From Syntrophobacterales bacterium (GTDB taxonomy: Bacteria > Desulfobacterota > Syntrophia > Syntrophales > UBA5619), in assembly GCA_019429105.1 (NCBI GenBank), contig JAHYJE010000011.1, forward strand, positions 1-64,000: a DNA stretch of 64,000 nucleotides. Direction: 5' to 3'. A program made the translations under genes and the position numbers. Below, piece by piece: positions 6,051 to 39,303 of this stretch. The notes beneath the pieces were generated by a model that saw only the letters and a program-made list of their open reading frames with translations, had not been told where the DNA came from and did no database searches. How positions within the stretch are numbered: position 1 is the first letter of the stretch; every line of letters starts with the position of its first letter.

Positions 6051-6672
6051 TTGTTGAAGTTGGAGAGACCTGCTTCTCGAGCCTGAGGAGATTCCGATAA
6101 TCTTCCTCGGTGTCAATGTCTAAATGGATGGCGCGATCGCCAACAGGCGTCTCCAGTATCTGATCGGCATATTCCGCGAAGATGGCTCTGGCACCGCAAT
6201 CACCGGTCAGCGCTGCTATTTTGGGGAAGGTCTGCCGGGCAAAGAGGACGGGATTGCCGCGGACTCCTGCAAATACCGGGATGACAATGGGCGCTTGCGA
6301 CCGATGGTAGGCTGCCAGGACGGCGTCTATTAATTCCGGACTGATGAGCGGCTGATCTCCAAGGAGAAATAATACCGCCTCTATATCCGGCGTCAGTGCC
6401 TGCAAACCAGCCTTGAGAGAAGTGCTCTGACCGTCTTTGTAGCCGTAATTTATAACAGTCTTCAAATCCCGCCCCTGCAGCAAGGGGAGGATGCTTTGCG
6501 CCTTATGCCCGAGGATCACAGCTACCTCGCTTAGCGACGACGCCAGGGCGGCGTCCACAACGCATTCCAGGATGGTTTTCCCCCGAAAGGGGAGGAGTTG
6601 CTTCGCCCTGTTCATCCGGGAACCTGCTCCGGCGGCAAGGACCACCCCGGCGACGCGCGCGGGACGATTCAT
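6022..6672 (-). CDS. mocA: MocA/MobA-like nucleotidyltransferase (molybdenum cofactor cytidylyl- or guanylyltransferase)
   Basis: The N-terminal signature GVVLAAGAGSRMNRAKQLLP is the NTP-binding loop of the MobA/MocA family, and FLLGDQPLIS carries the metal-binding Asp. MocA-type enzymes attach CMP to molybdopterin for xanthine-dehydrogenase-class enzymes, and this gene is last in a hydroxylase operon, so cytidylyltransferase is the best guess. Some relatives act in the selenium-dependent hydroxylase system. The start overlaps the yqeC stop by 4 nt (ATGA), so the genes are coupled. The 3' end overlaps prfB, which is convergent. Confidence 0.85.
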   Translation of the reverse strand: MNRPARVAGVVLAAGAGSRMNRAKQLLPFRGKTILECVVDAALASSLSEVAVILGHKAQSILPLLQGRDLKTVINYGYKDGQSTSLKAGLQALTPDIEAVLFLLGDQPLISPELIDAVLAAYHRSQAPIVIPVFAGVRGNPVLFARQTFPKIAALTGDCGARAIFAEYADQILETPVGDRAIHLDIDTEEDYRNLLRLEKQVSPTSTINSGSDIPQ

Positions 6673-7457
6673 TTCGCTCCCTCCAGGGGGTGAAATGAAT
6701 GGATGCGCACCCCCGCAAGCGCTTGCCCGACGACAACTCCCGCAACTCCGGGATGCAGGCTGTGGCGGAGCAATTCGGCAATCCGGACGCCGCTCTCCCG
6801 CCTTTTGCGGTCGTCGGCCTTGTTCAAAAAGATGAAGCGGCGGGCCTTGGGGGGGGATCCCTTCAAGAGGCCGTGGGGGTTGACAAAGAGGCGCGTCAGC
6901 GCCGCCTCGGTAATCGTTTCTCCTGCAGAAAGCTCCATCAGCTCACCGGCGCGCCCGGAACGGAAGACCATATTTTCATTCAACTTTGCCCCAACCGCCT
7001 CCAGTCCCGCCACCGCAACATGAATCGTCGTGCAGGAGGGAATGACCGGTTCGTGATCATCCGGCGACTTGAGGGGGCGCATCGCCGCTCCGTCGGCCTC
7101 CACGATGATCCAGTCGAAAAGACCAGACTCGGCGAAGGTGCAGATTGTCTCCGGGGAAAAACCCTGGAGTTTGCCGGAATCCGCCAGGCGCGTGGAGACG
7201 GCGGTAACATGCCTGGCCGCTTGAATGCAGGCCGACGCCAGCCGCATTATCAACTCCGGGTCTTGGTCAATAAATACCTTTTCTGACTGCTCCGCGGTGG
7301 GCGGAAAGATCCTGGTTGTGGTCGTGGTCAGCACCCTCATCCCGGTCCCAACCAGCAGCCGGGCGAGCTGAAACATCAGACTCGTTTTTCCGCCGCCCCC
7401 GGTCAGGCTCAATACTCCCCGCGATTCATTGCAAAATATCTCTTCGATCGTTTTCAT
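6669..7457 (-). CDS. yqeC: selenium cofactor biosynthesis protein YqeC
   Basis: A 262-residue P-loop protein with the Walker A loop LTGGGGKTSLM at residues 18-28 and TTTTTRIFPPT shortly after, both typical of YqeC. Members occur with YqeB in genomes that use a labile selenium cofactor in molybdenum hydroxylases; the exact reaction is not established. The conserved block FDWIIVEADGAAMRPLKSP follows around residue 115-135. The gene lies 7 nt after yqeB and overlaps mocA by 4 nt, as part of the same minus-strand operon. Confidence 0.88.
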   Translation of the reverse strand: MKTIEEIFCNESRGVLSLTGGGGKTSLMFQLARLLVGTGMRVLTTTTTRIFPPTAEQSEKVFIDQDPELIMRLASACIQAARHVTAVSTRLADSGKLQGFSPETICTFAESGLFDWIIVEADGAAMRPLKSPDDHEPVIPSCTTIHVAVAGLEAVGAKLNENMVFRSGRAGELMELSAGETITEAALTRLFVNPHGLLKGSPPKARRFIFLNKADDRKRRESGVRIAELLRHSLHPGVAGVVVGQALAGVRIHSFHPLEGAK

Positions 7458-7464
7458 GTGCCGC

Positions 7465-8274
7465 TTACCGGTTATAGGCGTTGAGCAGCGCTTCGAGAAC
7501 GGCGCCGCCCAGGGCTCGGGCTTTTTCCGAGATGGTGTCGCAATAATCTGCTTTACCGCGCGGATCGACGTCGCCGATCTTGAGCCCCCGGGCGACGATA
7601 GACGCGGGCCTGATCAGGCCGCGCAGGATGCCGTCGATCTTGGCAGTTATCTCATCCGTGCCGATTCTGCCGATCACTTCCCCCTTGCGGACCAGATCGC
7701 CGATCTGCTTTTCGGAACTGAAGACGCCGTCCGCCGGGGCGCGCAGCACCCGTTTTGCCGTGTAACCGCCGATATTGCCGGGGATGCCGGTATTCGCCTC
7801 GGCCATTCCCTCGGAAATCAGGCGGCCGAGATTGTGGCCGCGGTTAGTCTCGATCACTGCATGACAGTCCACTCCGGCCGTGAAGCCGGGGCCCAGGGCG
7901 ATCACAAGCGGGGCGTCGGCTATGGAAATACCCAGGTTTCGTTTGGCAACGGTTGCATCTATAAGCACATCCGGCCGCAAAAGGTGAATGGCTTCTCCCG
8001 CCGGATCCACTTGGACGGCGATCTTCCCGGCCGCCCAGGCGGCGGCAAGTTCGGCCCGGTCAACAACCTTGATTGCCTCGATTCCTTCCACTGTCATGCT
8101 CTTTTCGTGAACCGCTTCGCAGAAGGAGACATGCCGCCGGACAGCCAGGGGGGAACTGGTCTCTAACATCAGTATTCGCCTGAAGTTGGCGCAATAGAGT
8201 CGGCAGGCGATGCCGGTGGCCTGTTCTCCGGCGCCCTTGATAATTATGAAGAGCTCTTTTAGCCGGATATCCAC
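7465..8274 (-). CDS. yqeB: selenium-dependent molybdenum hydroxylase system protein YqeB
   Basis: Members of the EF2563/YqeB family accompany selenium-dependent molybdenum hydroxylases. The Rossmann-like N-terminus (ELFIIIKGAGEQATGIACRL) is preceded by an open frame back to 8358, but that extension lies inside xdhC and has no family character. I therefore place the start at GTG 8274, one base after the xdhC stop, giving 269 residues. Conserved segments include VLIDATVAKRN, VIALGPGFTAGVDCHAVIET and RGHNLGR. Together with YqeC it is the best sequence marker that this operon makes a selenium-containing hydroxylase. Confidence 0.87.
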   Translation of the reverse strand: MDIRLKELFIIIKGAGEQATGIACRLYCANFRRILMLETSSPLAVRRHVSFCEAVHEKSMTVEGIEAIKVVDRAELAAAWAAGKIAVQVDPAGEAIHLLRPDVLIDATVAKRNLGISIADAPLVIALGPGFTAGVDCHAVIETNRGHNLGRLISEGMAEANTGIPGNIGGYTAKRVLRAPADGVFSSEKQIGDLVRKGEVIGRIGTDEITAKIDGILRGLIRPASIVARGLKIGDVDPRGKADYCDTISEKARALGGAVLEALLNAYNR

Positions 8275-8275
8275 T

Positions 8276-9037
8276 TCATTCCAGTCCGTTATAGGTGGCG
8301 ATAAGCTGGCAGGCGATGCTGATTGCGATCTCCCGCGGGGAATTTCCGCCGTTGTCATGGCCGATTGGACAGCGGACAGAGGAGAGATCCAACCCCTTTT
8401 TCTCCAGGTTTTGTTTGATGCCGGCCCATTTGGATTTGCTGCCGATCATGCCGAGGTAACGGGTCGGATGGGGCAGAACCTCCTCCAGCACCTGCTGATC
8501 GACAGCGCCGCTGTAGGTCTGGATGGCAACGAAACTCCGCTGCGGATCCCAGTTGGTTTTTTCGATAAAGTCACGCCACTGGCACTGATGGCGGACCACG
8601 CCCTGCGGGATGGCCGGCGAGTTGATCCACTCTTCGCGCGTGTCGATCAGGTGAATCCGGAAGGGGGTTCCTTCCAGAACCTGACAGAGGGCCTGACCGA
8701 CATGGCCGGCGCCGAACAGGTAGAGCGACGGGCTATCGTTGAGCACTTCCAGATATAATTCCATGGTTCCTCCACAGGCGGGAAATTCCCCCCTTGGTTT
8801 TAACGGTATCTCCGAGGTGGCGCCCCTCAAACTGTCGAAGCATTTACGGGCATCCTCCAGGGCGTGAAGCTCCGGCGTTCCGCCGCCTACCGTGCCGAAG
8901 AATGTTCCGTCCGCAAGAACGATCATTTTGGCCCCCTGCTTGCGCGGGGTTGACCCGCTGCTCTTGGTGACGGTAACCAGTACGCACAACTGATCATTAC
9001 GCCGCAGTTCTTCTAATTTGCCGATCCAGTCCCACAT
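8276..9037 (-). CDS. xdhC: XdhC/CoxI family molybdenum cofactor insertion and sulfuration chaperone
   Basis: XdhC proteins bind sulfurated or selenated molybdenum cofactor and deliver it to xanthine-dehydrogenase-type enzymes. The N-terminal domain shows VTVTKSSGSTPRKQGAKMIV and FFGTVGGG. The C-terminal Rossmann domain begins at LYLFGAGHVGQALCQVLEG, and IGSKSKW follows. The 253-residue length is typical. The 5' end overlaps the 3' end of the molybdopterin subunit gene by 41 nt, and the stop is one base from the yqeB start. Confidence 0.9.
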   Translation of the reverse strand: MWDWIGKLEELRRNDQLCVLVTVTKSSGSTPRKQGAKMIVLADGTFFGTVGGGTPELHALEDARKCFDSLRGATSEIPLKPRGEFPACGGTMELYLEVLNDSPSLYLFGAGHVGQALCQVLEGTPFRIHLIDTREEWINSPAIPQGVVRHQCQWRDFIEKTNWDPQRSFVAIQTYSGAVDQQVLEEVLPHPTRYLGMIGSKSKWAGIKQNLEKKGLDLSSVRCPIGHDNGGNSPREIAISIACQLIATYNGLE

Positions 9038-11345
9038 GCCTGCCTCCTTCCTCGCCTTCCTCTTTACGCTTTTTCTTGAGAGATCGCCAGATCTTTTCGT
9101 AACTCAACGGCAGGCTGTTGACGCGCACTCCCATCGCGTCAAAAATGGCATTGGAGAACATTCCCAAGGTGGGATTGGTTGAGCCTTCGCCAATCTCCTT
9201 GACCCCCCAGGGGCCGCTCGGCTCATAGCTATCTACAACCTCAGAATGGACCGGCGGCATATCCAGGGCGGTAAGCACCCGGTAATTGGCCAGGTCGGCG
9301 TTTTTGATCCTTCCCTTGTCGTCGAAAAGAACCTCCTCCCAGGCTGCCTCTCCCATTCCCATGTACAGCGCACCATGCACCTGCCCGTGCAGCAAGCGCG
9401 GGTTGATCACCTTGCCGCAGTCGTGCACGTCCCAGATTCCCATAACCGTGATCTCCCCGGTCTCCTCGTCAATCGCCACCTCGCCCACCTGGACACCGAA
9501 GCTGTAGGCGGGCGATGTGCCAACCGCGGCGCCCTTGAAGGTTCCCCCCAGTTTGGGCGGCGTGTAGGCGCCTTTGCCGAGGAGCGGCCCCCTGAGCACG
9601 AAATGCCGGCGCGCTGCCTCCTGAAAGGAAATGGTCTTATTGGCGCGGGATTTGGAAAAGATCACGCCCTCCTCGCAGTCCAGATCAGCGACAGGCAGGG
9701 AGAGCATGGTTGATGCCATTTCGAGGAGCTGTTTTTTGATCTCCTCGCCGGCCTGTTTGACGGCAGCCCCGGACATATAGGTTTGGCGGCTGGCGTAGGC
9801 GCCGAAATCGATGGGTGTAAGTTCGGTGTCCGCGGCGACTATCTTCATCTGTTCGTAGCGGTATCCCATTGCCTCTGCGGCCATCTGGCAAAGAATCGTG
9901 TCAGAGCCCTGGCCGATGTCGGCCGCGCCGGTGTAAAGAGTGGCCGATGTGCCGTCCTCATTGACCTTGATGACTGCCGCTGCATGGGGGAGATCGGTGC
10001 GATAGATGGAATAGCCGGCCCCGGTGACGAAACTACCCGTTGCCACTCCAATGCCCCGGCCGGGGGGGAGATTTTTCTTTTTTTCATCCCATCCCGAAAT
10101 TACCCTGGCCCGCTCCAGACATTCCCGGAGCTTGCAGGAGTTCACCTGAAAATCATTGGGTGTAACTGTATCCGGCCTGCGGGCATTGAGGAGCCGGATG
10201 TCCATCGGATCGATCCCCAGGTCGGCGGCAACATTGTCCAGGTGGCTCTCAAAGGCATACTTGGGCTGGGGGGCGCCATGTCCGCGCTGAGCGCCGCAGG
10301 CAGGCAGGTTGGTATAAACCCGGAACATGTCGAACTTGTAGTTGTCAAATTCATAGGTCAGGGGGAGCAGCGCTCCAGCGTAGTAGGCGCTGGCTATCCC
10401 CAGGCTTGTGTAGGCGCCTCCGTCCATGATGAAGTTGGCCTTGACGGCAAGGATCTTCCCTTTCTTATCGACGCCGGTGGTGATCTCCATGTGTTGGGCG
10501 TGCCGTCCCCGGTTATGGGCAAACATCTCGGCCCGGTCGTAAAACATCCGCACCGGCCGTCCGGTGAGTTTTGCCAGCACCGAACCGGCGAATTCCAGCC
10601 CGGTCGGCTCCATTTTACCGCCGAAACCGCCTCCCACATGAGGTTTGATGATCCGGACATCCCCCATGGGCAGGTCGAACTGTCGGGCTATGTAGTGCTG
10701 AAAGTAGTGGGGAGACTGGGTGCTCGCATAGATAGTGAGCTTTTTCCCATCCCACATGGAGATGGAGGAGTGCGGTTCGATGGGGGACTGATAGGCGCGC
10801 TGCCCCCGGAAGGTGTCGGTGCGCACGTGGAAGGAAGCGGCCAGGGCCTGCTCCACATCGCCGAACTCCTGATGGATCTCGGTGTTGATGTTGCGCTTGA
10901 ACTCGTCGTGAATCAGGGGTTGTCCCTCATCCATGGCATGGAGGTAATCGAGCACGGCCGGCAGCTCTTCGTACTCTACCTTGATGAGCTTCAGGGCCTT
11001 GTAGCAGGTTTCTTCATCCACGCAGCACACAGCGGCAACCTTGTCGCCGACGAAGCGCACCTTGTCGCTGCAGAAGATGTTCTCGTCCCAGCGGGCCGGA
11101 CTGAGCCCATACTTCAGGGACGGCACATCCTTGTGGGTGATGATTGCCTTTACCCCTGGGAGTTTTTCAGCCGCGGCGGCATCGATGGAAATGATCCGGG
11201 CATGGGCGTGGGGACTTGTCAGGATCTTTCCGAAAAGCATATTGGGAAATTTCAGGTCGCCGGCGTACTTCGCGGCGCCCGTTACCTTGTCCGGGCCGTC
11301 GATGCGCGGGACGCTGCGGCCGATTACTTTATAGTTGTTATTCAT
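8997..11345 (-). CDS. molybdenum hydroxylase large (molybdopterin-binding) subunit, xanthine dehydrogenase / hydroxybenzoyl-CoA reductase family
   Basis: A 782-residue catalytic subunit. The N-terminal a/b hammerhead domain (residues about 18-125) includes RIDGPDKVTGAAKYAGDL. The Moco-binding domains show KPHVGGGFGGKMEP, ACGAQRGHGAPQP and TGAADIGQGSDT, and the C-terminal GPWGVKEIGEGSTNPT carries the conserved Glu. The AYRCSFR motif of aerobic CO dehydrogenases is absent, so it is not a CoxL CO oxidiser. The substrate cannot be read from sequence: purine, nicotinate-like or aromatic CoA substrates are all possible. The yqeB/yqeC/xdhC/mocA genes downstream suggest a selenium-dependent enzyme. 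It starts with a 4-nt overlap with the 2Fe-2S subunit gene. Confidence 0.9.
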   Translation of the reverse strand: MNNNYKVIGRSVPRIDGPDKVTGAAKYAGDLKFPNMLFGKILTSPHAHARIISIDAAAAEKLPGVKAIITHKDVPSLKYGLSPARWDENIFCSDKVRFVGDKVAAVCCVDEETCYKALKLIKVEYEELPAVLDYLHAMDEGQPLIHDEFKRNINTEIHQEFGDVEQALAASFHVRTDTFRGQRAYQSPIEPHSSISMWDGKKLTIYASTQSPHYFQHYIARQFDLPMGDVRIIKPHVGGGFGGKMEPTGLEFAGSVLAKLTGRPVRMFYDRAEMFAHNRGRHAQHMEITTGVDKKGKILAVKANFIMDGGAYTSLGIASAYYAGALLPLTYEFDNYKFDMFRVYTNLPACGAQRGHGAPQPKYAFESHLDNVAADLGIDPMDIRLLNARRPDTVTPNDFQVNSCKLRECLERARVISGWDEKKKNLPPGRGIGVATGSFVTGAGYSIYRTDLPHAAAVIKVNEDGTSATLYTGAADIGQGSDTILCQMAAEAMGYRYEQMKIVAADTELTPIDFGAYASRQTYMSGAAVKQAGEEIKKQLLEMASTMLSLPVADLDCEEGVIFSKSRANKTISFQEAARRHFVLRGPLLGKGAYTPPKLGGTFKGAAVGTSPAYSFGVQVGEVAIDEETGEITVMGIWDVHDCGKVINPRLLHGQVHGALYMGMGEAAWEEVLFDDKGRIKNADLANYRVLTALDMPPVHSEVVDSYEPSGPWGVKEIGEGSTNPTLGMFSNAIFDAMGVRVNSLPLSYEKIWRSLKKKRKEEGEEGGRHVGLDRQIRRTAA

Positions 11346-32234: not shown

Positions 32235-32912
32235 TCACTCCCCTTCCGCCAGCTCGCTAAGCGCCTCCCGATCCAGAATCAGGATCGACCTGCCGTCCAC
32301 CGCCAGCAACCCGGCGTTGCTCATTTTCCGGATTCCCCGCGAAAGGGCTTCCGGGGTGGCGCCCAGGATCTTGGCCAGCTCCCGCTGCGTGATCGTCAGT
32401 TCCAGTTGGTTTGTCTGTGCACCCTCCATCCTCTGTGCATGGAGCAGGAAAGAGGCGAGCCGCTGCGGGAGCTCCTTGAGCGACAACGACTCGATCAGGA
32501 TCATTGATTCCCGGAGGCGATCAGAGAGAACCTGGATGATGTTCACCAGCAGGCGCGGCTCTTGCATCGCGACGGCCTCCATGACCGTCCCGGGGATCAA
32601 GAGGAGGCTGCTGTCTTCCAGTGCCATCGCGTTTGCCGGAAAAGAATCGATGGCGAAGGCGGTGCACATGCCGAAGGGGTCTCCCGGCCTTAGCAGATTG
32701 AGCGTCTGTTCCCTGCCCTCGGGAGAACTTTTGTAGAGCTTTACCTGGCCGGTGACGATGACATAAAAGGCATGGGCGGGATCCAGCTCGCCCAGGAACA
32801 TTTCTCCTGCCTTGTAGGTTCTGTAACGGGCGTGTTCCGACAACGCCTTGAGCTTTTCGGCAGGCAGCCCCTGGAATAAGTCCAATGTCTGCATTTGCTT
32901 CAAGATATCCAT
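32235..32912 (-). CDS. CRP/FNR family regulator (DNR-like, without FNR-type cysteines)
   Basis: A 225-residue protein with an N-terminal cyclic-nucleotide-like effector domain (about residues 10-125), a dimerisation helix and a Crp-type helix-turn-helix at about residues 165-200. The recognition helix ATPEALSRGIRKM carries E-x-x-S-R, the pattern FNR uses to read TTGAT half sites. No N-terminal Cys cluster is present, so oxygen sensing by a 4Fe-4S cluster is unlikely; a haem- or ligand-based DNR-like mode is possible. RBS GGGGAGGA lies 5 nt upstream. A perfect TTGAT-N4-ATCAA box sits just before the RBS, which suggests autoregulation. Confidence 0.88.
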   Translation of the reverse strand: MDILKQMQTLDLFQGLPAEKLKALSEHARYRTYKAGEMFLGELDPAHAFYVIVTGQVKLYKSSPEGREQTLNLLRPGDPFGMCTAFAIDSFPANAMALEDSSLLLIPGTVMEAVAMQEPRLLVNIIQVLSDRLRESMILIESLSLKELPQRLASFLLHAQRMEGAQTNQLELTITQRELAKILGATPEALSRGIRKMSNAGLLAVDGRSILILDREALSELAEGE

Positions 32913-35777: not shown

Positions 35778-38700
35778 ATGGAAGGTATCGGAATATCGGG
35801 AAAGATTGCCAAGGCGTTTATCAAATCCAAACTGACGCCGCTTGTGATCATTGCCTCTCTGCTGCTCGGGCTGCTGGCGGTTGTTATCACCCCTCGCGAA
35901 GAGGAGCCGCAGATCCTCGTGCCGATGATCGACATCTTCGTCGCCTATCCGGGGGCTTCGCCGCAGGAAGTGGAAGCCCGGGTTACAAAATCCATGGAAA
36001 AGCTGCTGTGGGAAATCAAGGGAGTGGAGTATGTCTATTCCATCGTCAAGCCCGGCTTCAATCTGACGATTGTCCGTTTTTATGTGGGGCAGGGCATGGA
36101 GGAGAGCATTGTCAACCTGAACAACAAGCTTTCGTCCAACTTCGACCGGATGCCGCCGGGCGTAATGCCGCCCTTGGTCAAACAGCGTTCCATTGACGAC
36201 GTTCCGATTCTCACCTTGACCCTTTGGAGCGACAGCGACCGCTACTCCGGCTATGAACTTAGGCGGATCGGCACCGAGGTTTGCGACGAAATCAAGAAGA
36301 ACCAGGACGTATCGGAATTTTCGCTGATCGGCGGGCAGAAACGGCAGGTTTTAATTACGCTGGATCCGGCGAAGCTCAAGGCTTACCATTTGTCCTCCTT
36401 CCAGATCATGGGCGCGCTGCAGAAGGCAAACTTCCGTCTTCCTTCCGGATCTTTTCCGACCGGAAACAGGGAATATCTTGTGGAAACGGGGGCTTTCCTG
36501 AAAAACAGCGAAGATGTGGGCAGTGTAGTCGCCGGCGTTTTTAACGGCCGACCCGTAACCTTGCGGGATGTGGCCACGATCGCCGATGGTCCGGAAGAAC
36601 CGTCCAATTATGTTTTCATGGGACTGGGAGCGGCGGCGGCCCAAAAGGGAATCAAAAGCGGGGCGGCCGGGCAGAAAGAGGCTGTTACCATCGCCATCGC
36701 CAAGAAAAAAGGCGCCAACGCCAGCCTTGTAGCGCACGAGGCGCTGGCAAAGGTGGAGGCGCTGAAGGGCAAGCTTATCCCCGGGGATGTGAACGTCACC
36801 GTAACCCGGAATTACGGCGATACGGCCAAAGAGAAATCCGACGAGCTCTTGAAGCATATGTTGCTGGCCACCATCGCCGTGATCATCCTGATTGCGCTTA
36901 CCCTCGGCTGGCGGGAGGCTGTTGTGGTCGCGGTTGCCGTTCCGGTGACGCTGGCCCTGACGCTTTTGATCAACTACCTCTACGGCTACACTTTGAACCG
37001 GGTGACCCTTTTTGCACTGATCTTTTCTATAGGCATCCTGGTTGACGACGCCATCGTCGTCGTGGAAAACATCCATCGCCACTTCAAGCTCCACAAGATA
37101 GAACCGCTGACTGCCGTCCTGGCTGTCGCCGAGGTGGGCAATCCCACCATCCTGGCCACGCTGGCGGTAATCGCCGCGCTGCTGCCGATGGCCTTCGTCT
37201 CCGGCCTGATGGGGCCCTATATGCGCCCGATCCCGGTCGGCGCGTCGGCGGCGATGATCTTTTCGCTGCTGGTTGCCTTTATCGTCAGCCCGTGGCTTTC
37301 CTACATCGTCCTGAAGAACGTGAAAAAAACCGCTGTAACCGAAGAAGGCGGACGGATGTTCAGCATTTACCGAAAAATTATGGGGCCCCTGCTGAAAAGC
37401 AGGTTCAAGCGAATGCTGACGTTGGGGAGCGTTGTCTTTCTCCTGTTGCTTGCCGTCACGCTGATTCCCCTCAAGCAGGTTACGGTGAAGCTGCTGCCGT
37501 TTGACAACAAGAGCGAACTGCAGGTTATCATCGACATGCCGGAAGGCAAGACCCTGGAAGAAACGGCGGCGATGGCCCGAGAGATGGGGGAATATCTGAA
37601 AACCGTCCCGGAGGTCACCGATTATCAGACCTATGTGGGAACTGCCGCCCCTTATAACTTCAACGGTCTGGTGCGCCACTACTTTCTGCGCGCCGGCAGC
37701 ACAGTTGCCGACCTTCAGGTCAATTTCGTCGCCAAGGAAGAGAGGAAAGAACAGAGCCATGGGATCGCCAAGCGGCTGCGTCCGAACTTGAAGAAAATCG
37801 GCGACCGCTACGGAGCCCGGGTCAAGGTGGCGGAAATTCCTCCCGGGCCGCCTGTCCTAAGCACGCTTGTGGCGGAGATATACGGTCCTGATGACAAGCG
37901 GCGAATCGAGATTGCCCGCGAGATTAAAAAGATCTTTGCGGAGACCGACGGAGTGGTCGATGTGGACTGGTACGTGGAGGAAGACCAGCCCAAGATAAGT
38001 TTGGTGGTGGATCAGGACAAGGCGGCCCGGTCCGGGGTGACTGCCGAGGCGGTTTCTCAGAGTTTGAGAATTGCGTTGCAGGGAACGGGCGCCGGAGTTG
38101 TTCATCTGGATAAAGAAAAGGAACCGGTAGAACTCTTCCTGCGGATGCCGCTTGCGAAGAGGGCCGATATCGCTTCCCTTAAATCGATCGGGATGCCGAC
38201 TCCGGGAGGGGCCATGATTCCGCTTTCTGAGCTGGTGAAACGTCAGGACGGCTTCGAGGAAAAGACAATCTACCACAAGAACCTCAAAAATGTGACCTAT
38301 GTTCTGGGGGACGTAGCCGGAACGGAGGAGAGCCCGGTTTACGCGATTATGAAGATGAAGAAAACAATCGAAAAGATGAAGCTGCCCGAAGGCTACGGCC
38401 TGAAACAGTACTCCACCGTTCAGCCCTGGCTGGAGGACACCTACTCGATGAAGTGGGATGGAGAGTGGCACATAACCTACGAGGTGTTCCGGGATTTGGG
38501 ACTGGCCTTTGCCGCGGTGCTGATCCTGATTTATGTCCTCATAGTTGCCTGGTTCAAAAATTTTATCACGCCGCTGATCATCATGGCGCCGATTCCGCTG
38601 ACCCTGGTCGGGATTCTGCCCGGTCACTGGCTTTTCGGCGCCTTTTTCACGGCCACCTCGATGATCGGTTTTATCGCCCTCGCGGGGATAATTGTAAGGA

Positions 38701-39020
38701 ATTCCATCCTCCTCATTGATTTTGTCGAGATGGAGTGGCGCGAAAAGGGGCATTTGGAAAACGCGCTGATCATGGCCGGCGCTGTCCGCTTCCGACCGAT
38801 TGTTTTGACCGCCGCGGCCGTTGTGGTCAGCTCGTTCGTGATGCTCTTCGATCCGATCTTTCAGGGACTGGCGATCGCGATAATGTTCGGTGCTGTCGGC
38901 GCCACAGCCTTGACGCTGATCGTGGTGCCGCTCCTCTATTTTGAGTTTTTTCAGAAAAAATCCTGCCCGATGGCCGAACAGATGGAGGAAAGCTGCAATG
39001 AGGAAAAGGAACAGAAATGA
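35778..39020 (+). CDS. RND-family efflux transporter, inner-membrane pump
   Basis: A 1080-residue AcrB-superfamily permease with the usual twelve-helix layout and two large periplasmic loops (about residues 45-355 and 565-880). The proton-relay aspartates are in [19 protein letters not shown] in TM4. The C-terminal half repeats [20 protein letters not shown]. The substrate is not readable; the sequence does not show the metal-sensing Met pattern of CusA. It starts 11 nt after the adaptor. The 3' end converges on the small selenoprotein-like gene, leaving 43 nt between stops. Confidence 0.92.
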
Positions 39021-39063
39021 GCATTTTCCCCCTTGCCGCACTCCCTTTTCATAGAATAGGCGG

Positions 39064-39219
39064 TCAGTTTTTCGGCTTAATCTCTTCCGCTTTCTTTTTG
39101 CCGCTCTCAACGGAGCAGCCCGAGCGCAGTCAGGAAGAGACGCCCATTTTGGGAAGGAGCCACAACTGGACGAAAAGCCACACTGCGACCACAATCAATA
39201 AAATATAAAAATCGTTCAT
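39064..39219 (-). CDS. candidate small membrane selenoprotein with in-frame UGA
   Basis: ATG 39219 has AGGA 5 nt upstream. Twenty-nine codons encode one membrane helix (FYILLIVVAVWLFVQLWLLP) and then KMGVSS. The next codon is TGA (39130-39132). The frame continues LRSGCSVESGKKKAEEIKPK and ends at a second TGA (39064-39066), for 51 residues with selenocysteine at position 30 and a Cys five residues later (U-x4-C). A hairpin downstream of the UGA matches bacterial SECIS geometry. Read conventionally it would be a 29-residue peptide. Function is unknown; a membrane-anchored redox pair is plausible. An FNR-type box lies upstream. Confidence 0.65.
39100..39119 (-). promoter_or_regulatory. candidate bacterial SECIS hairpin
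   Basis: On the minus strand, GCUGCUC (39119-39113) pairs with GAGCGGC (39106-39100): 7 bp with one G-U. The 6-nt loop is CGUUGA (39112-39107). The loop begins 17 nt after the UGA, has G as its second base and contains GU. From memory, E. coli fdhF also has 17 nt between UGA and a 6-nt loop. Confidence 0.6.
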
Positions 39220-39303
39220 TATTATCCTATATATACCCCCTTCGCATTCGTTAGTATTTATCTTTTGCTATTCATCTCCGGCGATTCTCATGGATACGGC
39301 TGT

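Follow-up and report, generated by a model that had tools for sequence, protein, structure and literature searches.

Eukaryotic selenoprotein S (SELENOS, or VIMP) is a single-pass membrane selenoprotein with a cytosolic tail and a Sec-Cys pair, for which thioredoxin-dependent reductase and peroxidase activities have been reported (PMC5553675). Among bacteria, genome analysis has yielded small selenoproteins such as KCU-star, UXX-star, TsoC with its NEPxGxxU motif, and proteins with the CC/Se motif, many of which have NCBIfam models (PMC13188914), and members of the phylum considered here were already regarded as selenoprotein-rich (PMC5029168). The homology step of the newest selenoprotein finder relies on relatives that have Cys or are known to have Sec, and by its authors' own account deep-Sep may overlook selenoproteins without Cys homologues (PMC12013277). 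Here, we describe a short gene with an in-frame UGA that appears to encode a membrane selenoprotein of a previously uncatalogued family.

The gene lies in a 64,000-nucleotide stretch of DNA from a Syntrophobacterales bacterium (the window). An earlier note on this DNA had proposed a 51-residue selenoprotein candidate with an in-frame UGA, leaving the strand unstated. The gene is on the minus strand (Table 1), and its frame, UGA, and flanking residues are conserved across the phylum. Translation from the ATG (39219-39217), which the note had rated a good start together with its ribosome-binding site, gives MNDFYILLIVVAVWLFVQLWLLPKMGVSS-U-LRSGCSVESGKKKAEEIKPKN when UGA is read as Sec (U), and the second UGA terminates the frame. 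The divergent gene on the other flank (39536, plus strand), recognized by eye from its sequence, is presumably panC-like. A scan of the window also found yqeC and yqeB, bearing out the note's mention of selenium-cofactor genes; in the minus-strand stretch 6672-11345 these two adjoin a protein matching the alpha subunit of 4-hydroxybenzoyl-CoA reductase, possibly forming a labile-selenium molybdenum hydroxylase locus. Beyond the terminating UGA, DNA at 39021-39063 of the window (UPVLCKRTPA-like in frame) resembles that at three other loci (L079, L082, and L141), perhaps as a shared terminator or repeat or as a second coding stretch, the pattern being too inconsistent to call.

Table 1. Positions of the selenoprotein gene, its elements, and related features in the window.
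Feature	Position	Strand	Basis
Selenoprotein gene, 51 codons; UGA codon 30 read as Sec, UGA codon 52 as stop	39064..39219	-	Translation; orthologues with one TGA
AGGA ribosome-binding site, 5 nt ahead of ATG	39225..39228	-	Sequence
Single membrane helix, residues 3-21 (predicted)	39157..39213	-	AlphaFold; family mean hydropathy +2.3
UGA codon for selenocysteine, residue 30	39130..39132	-	All 146 family loci have TGA, 0 have Cys
Cys35, candidate partner of Sec30 (U-x4-C)	39115..39117	-	Position +5 is Cys in 128/146
SECIS hairpin with 7-bp stem; loop CGUUGA begins 17 nt past UGA	39100..39119	-	Folding, covariation, published bacterial SECIS model
RND efflux permease, convergent neighbour	35778..39020	+	NCBIfam; neighbour clusters
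CRP/FNR-type regulator	32235..32912	-	Relatives divergent from thioredoxin-selenoprotein pair in other Syntrophales
yqeC	6672-7457		Window scan
yqeB	7468-8358		Window scan

Within the window's taxonomic family, of which 21 genomes were searched by protein, 11 have relatives with an in-frame TGA, the window's own genome included. A profile built from 17 relatives matched 80 of 155 genomes of the order, which named contigs (Smithella, Syntrophaceae, Syntrophales) identify as Syntrophales, and a profile built from 76 members matched 167 of 395 genomes, an even draw across the phylum, in dozens of families; per-genome E-values in these profile searches reached 1e-26. In all, 146 loci were extracted. 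The family has a median length of 52 residues and the motif LP[RK]xG[VI]xTU downstream of the membrane helix. With positions numbered from Sec, P(-7), G(-4), and U(0) were invariant across all 146 loci, W(-16), T(-1), and L(-8) were nearly so (144, 143, and 142 loci, respectively), and a conserved Q/N(-12) lies on the helix face alongside W(-16). A match in a Dehalococcoidia genome (L077) was set aside as a chance match within another protein's frame; it lacks the motif. Outside the phylum, one scan of named genomes with narrow patterns was made and plasmids were searched, the latter giving chance matches only.

The Sec column held UGA in every one of the 146 loci and UAA or UAG in none. No Cys codon occurred at this column among the matches of the order and phylum searches, in which the profile carried Cys instead of a stop at that column and therefore had no bias toward UGA. 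Of the homologues anticipated by the earlier note, those with UGA at the corresponding position and conserved flanks were recovered, and those with Cys were found in no genome searched. Cys homologues are customarily looked for when selenoprotein families are screened but do not define a selenoprotein. When the 17 weakest matches were read by hand, 16 had UGA at the site, the sole exception (L270) probably being a non-member, and in eight weak matches first listed as lacking TGA the codon sits 1-2 residues beyond the matched stretch.

Selection on the flanking codons was estimated from 154 related, non-independent pairs, which give the direction and not precise values of dN/dS: 0.18 upstream of the UGA, 0.32 downstream of it, and 0.26 for the four codons preceding the hairpin. 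Judging from these comparisons, the codons past the UGA are under purifying selection, whereas loss of conservation there was one of two grounds that the earlier note had named for abandoning its candidate. The same values bear on the alternative that translation ends at the UGA, giving a membrane peptide of 29 residues, with the frame and hairpin beyond it serving as an attenuator or terminator. The low dN/dS of the residues ahead of the UGA agrees with this reading, and a hairpin could in principle regulate translation. However, coding constraint persists past the UGA, Cys recurs at position +5 in 128 of the 146 loci, a normal stop codon would vary among UAA, UAG, and UGA instead of remaining UGA throughout, and the hairpin has the loop and spacing of a SECIS element; we consider a true stop very improbable.

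The hairpin was found as the earlier note had described it, with a stem (GCUGCUC/GAGCGGC, one G-U pair) that begins 10 nt past the UGA and a 6-nt, GU-containing loop. Alone, it folds at -10.4 kcal/mol, and it conforms to the published constraints on bacterial SECIS elements, which ask for a loop at a distance of 16-37 nt, a G at one of the first two positions of the loop, a stem of 4-16 bp, and MFE <= -7.5 (PMC13188914). So did 115 of 145 family members, as compared to 11.7% of 3,000 TGAs picked at random from these loci; the apical loop lay 14-36 nt from the UGA in 142 of the 145 and had a G early in the loop in 137. Windows of 48 nt from the UGA had a mean z of -1.49 against shuffles, as compared to -0.37 for coding windows just upstream. 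Since flanking sequence swamps the hairpin when a 76-nt stretch is folded (z = -0.11), we relied on the 48-nt window and on covariation. Neither Rfam SECIS_1 (RF00031), which matched neither the locus nor the controls and is therefore uninformative, nor a cmscan of the locus, which returned only chance miRNA-like matches, contributed to the assignment.

The 7-bp stem was 93% paired across 41 gap-free sequences from Syntrophales, and it contained 30 double-sided changes, compared to 8.6 in shuffles, with none of 500 shuffles reaching 30. Sliding the partner by 1-3 columns lowered pairing to 32-46%. Some of the compensatory changes are silent in the protein on one of the two sides, at the third base of the Cys codon or of the codon preceding it, and a second clade has a 6-bp stem in a shifted register that also covaries (0/500). 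Short frames and hairpins are common, and more than a tenth of random TGAs pass the hairpin rules, so a chance open frame beside a chance hairpin might be proposed; conservation across the phylum together with this covariation refutes it through the homologues, and we regard it as practically dismissed.

The genome of the window encodes decoding machinery that the earlier note had suggested looking for, and the note's other ground for abandoning the candidate, a genome lacking selB and selC, does not apply. It has selB (at C12, 344 bits) and tRNA-Sec (selC; C1:167802-167895, 77 bits), both above cut-off, and selA (C3:96731-98098). Recoding of UGA to Trp, a frameshift, and a eukaryotic SECIS were rejected in view of selB and tRNA-Sec and because UGA also terminates many genes of the family. 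Within the phylum, the family was rarer in genomes where no selA was found (6 of 36) than in those with it (161 of 359; Fisher p = 0.001, on raw genome counts that ignore phylogeny). Put differently, a selA call was absent from 6 of 167 family-positive and 30 of 228 family-negative genomes; the six positives are mostly fragmented or incomplete assemblies, but two are 98-99% complete. Since selA is nearly universal in the phylum (359 of 395 genomes), its presence discriminates weakly. Taken together, the comparative evidence establishes the UGA as a sense codon, the hairpin as a SECIS element, and the family as phylum-wide, and on this basis we are nearly certain that the UGA specifies selenocysteine and that the family is one of genuine selenoproteins.

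Four members from a single genus (L262, L263, L265, and L266, in genomes G454, G354, G416, and G435) have two in-frame UGAs. Their sequence runs LP(K/R)LG(I/L)PS-U-GAP, then KRP(I/V)PT-U-DG(P/Q)(S/T)C, and ends in a conserved SKK-stop, with a hairpin after each UGA. The PT-U-x4-C motif is missing at the first UGA and restored at the second, and these genes are candidates for a double selenoprotein variant with an inserted linker.

The single membrane helix that had been noticed earlier was also predicted by AlphaFold (block pLDDT 87). The tail was modeled with low confidence (pLDDT <50 in places), so the geometry of the active site cannot be judged. Charges were -0.5 for the N-terminal flank, +1.1 for the juxtamembrane region, and +1.1 for the tail, a bias from which the positive-inside rule predicts a cytosolic tail. 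Sec lies seven residues past the proline at the membrane edge. The earlier note had further suggested that Sec and Cys form a U-x4-C redox pair on a membrane anchor. The pair is indeed common but not universal, since Cys is at another spacing in 13 loci and absent after Sec in 5. Variants without Cys(+5) (L105, L094, L096, L125 and L133, L135, L140, L144) are of the MVQARQ or VQTRQ type or of a U-x-C, CPDGKDS type, and some of them are paralogues in genomes that also carry a Cys(+5) form (L082/L105, L083/L140, and L093/L133). Because Cys(+5) is missing in this minority, an internal U-C selenenylsulfide cannot be obligatory, and the resolving thiol can be elsewhere.

In part of the family, gene context points to thioredoxin. 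Of all neighbours, the strongest was the gene for a thioredoxin with a WCGPC site, which lay directly upstream on the same strand, within ~160 bp, at 28 of 83 Syntrophales loci, as opposed to 3 of 59 loci outside the order, and in Syntrophales a CRP/FNR regulator is often divergent from the thioredoxin gene. The window retains the RND operon and the regulator but has no thioredoxin gene adjacent to the selenoprotein gene. Outside Syntrophales, the genes are mostly solitary, with unconserved neighbours and none common to most loci. At four loci (L104, L109, L129, and L197, the last from another family than the window), MFP and RND efflux genes come after the thioredoxin and selenoprotein genes, all on the same strand, an order that possibly reflects a shared operon.

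A redox role is suggested by the selenol itself, by how often the U-x4-C pair occurs, by the prediction of a cytosolic tail, and by the gene linkage to thioredoxin, and we propose the following mechanism. SelB and tRNA-Sec, guided by the hairpin past the UGA, would insert Sec at residue 30, and the N-terminal helix would anchor the protein in the inner membrane with its basic tail presumably in the cytosol. The selenol would thereby be placed about seven residues from the membrane surface, where it would most likely reduce an oxidized substrate at or in the membrane (a peroxide, a disulfide, or the thiol of a membrane protein), and it may be regenerated via Cys(+5), where present, and cytosolic thioredoxin. 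The clade-limited thioredoxin linkage is a counterpoint to this mechanism. We judge the whole account, an uncatalogued Sec membrane protein whose membrane selenol is recycled by thioredoxin, to be evenly poised between right and wrong. The broader formulation, a phylum-wide single-helix family with Sec, no Cys relative, and a thioredoxin-linked redox site at the cytosolic face of the membrane, we put forward tentatively, at a little short of even confidence.

Two other readings accept the selenoprotein and differ as to its function. Single-helix proteins of ~50 residues are often accessory subunits, and this one might belong to a larger membrane complex, such as the RND pump encoded alongside it or a respiratory complex, as a small subunit with a regulatory or structural role, its selenol binding a metal or cofactor instead of cycling with thioredoxin. 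The conservation of W(-16), Q/N(-12), P(-7), and G(-4) suggests a specific helix partner, and RND efflux genes are close by at the window and seven other loci, including one with the thioredoxin-selenoprotein-MFP-RND order (L197). However, that makes just 8 of 146 loci, and beyond Syntrophales no single neighbour recurs at most loci; we consider a subunit role unlikely, albeit deserving of attention. Alternatively, the protein could handle selenium or sulfur itself, for instance as a membrane persulfide or selenosulfide donor or sensor. Selenols and thiols are able to carry persulfide and selenosulfide groups, the phylum consists mainly of anaerobic sulfur- and metal-metabolizing bacteria, and the divergent CRP/FNR regulators suggest regulated expression. 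Nevertheless, the neighbours of the loci showed no recurrence of a rhodanese, selD, or desulfurase gene beside the selenoprotein gene, and such a role seems to us improbable. Redox chemistry at the membrane is our preferred, if tentative, reading.

Within the open-access literature and model libraries searched, the family appears to be previously uncatalogued. No Pfam or NCBIfam model matches it, only chance-level matches to other proteins being returned; a profile search of the PDB gave one chance-level match and nothing else; and a May 2026 catalogue of 119 families contains no fitting entry (PMC13188914). Homology-based finders plausibly missed it because Cys relatives are lacking. It is present in ~40% of the sampled genomes of a selenoprotein-rich phylum, yet absent from the catalogues and libraries checked. 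If our reading is true, a class of selenoproteins is invisible to homology-based finders and other Cys-less families remain undiscovered. A protein that never has Cys at this position across a phylum would offer a direct test of what selenium does beyond sulfur, and at ~50 residues it is small enough for chemical synthesis and study.

The family also differs from the described systems to which it might be assigned. The models of the small selenoproteins named by NCBI matched none of 76 family members at E <= 1. A redox role is likely common to the family and to the bacterial thioredoxin-fold selenoproteins (UxxC/CxxU), but that fold does not fit into 51 residues, here a helix and a low-confidence tail, and the new family mostly has U-x4-C instead of UxxC. 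The closest functional analogy, likened by description and with no kinship claimed, is SELENOS, which is likewise a single-pass membrane selenoprotein with Sec paired with Cys and a cytosolic tail, the pairing and the tail being only predicted in the new family. SELENOS, however, has 189 residues, a far longer tail, a penultimate Sec next to the C terminus, and a VCP-interacting motif, whereas the new family has Sec at residue 30 of 51, a 21-residue tail, Sec near the membrane surface, and a SECIS of the bacterial type.
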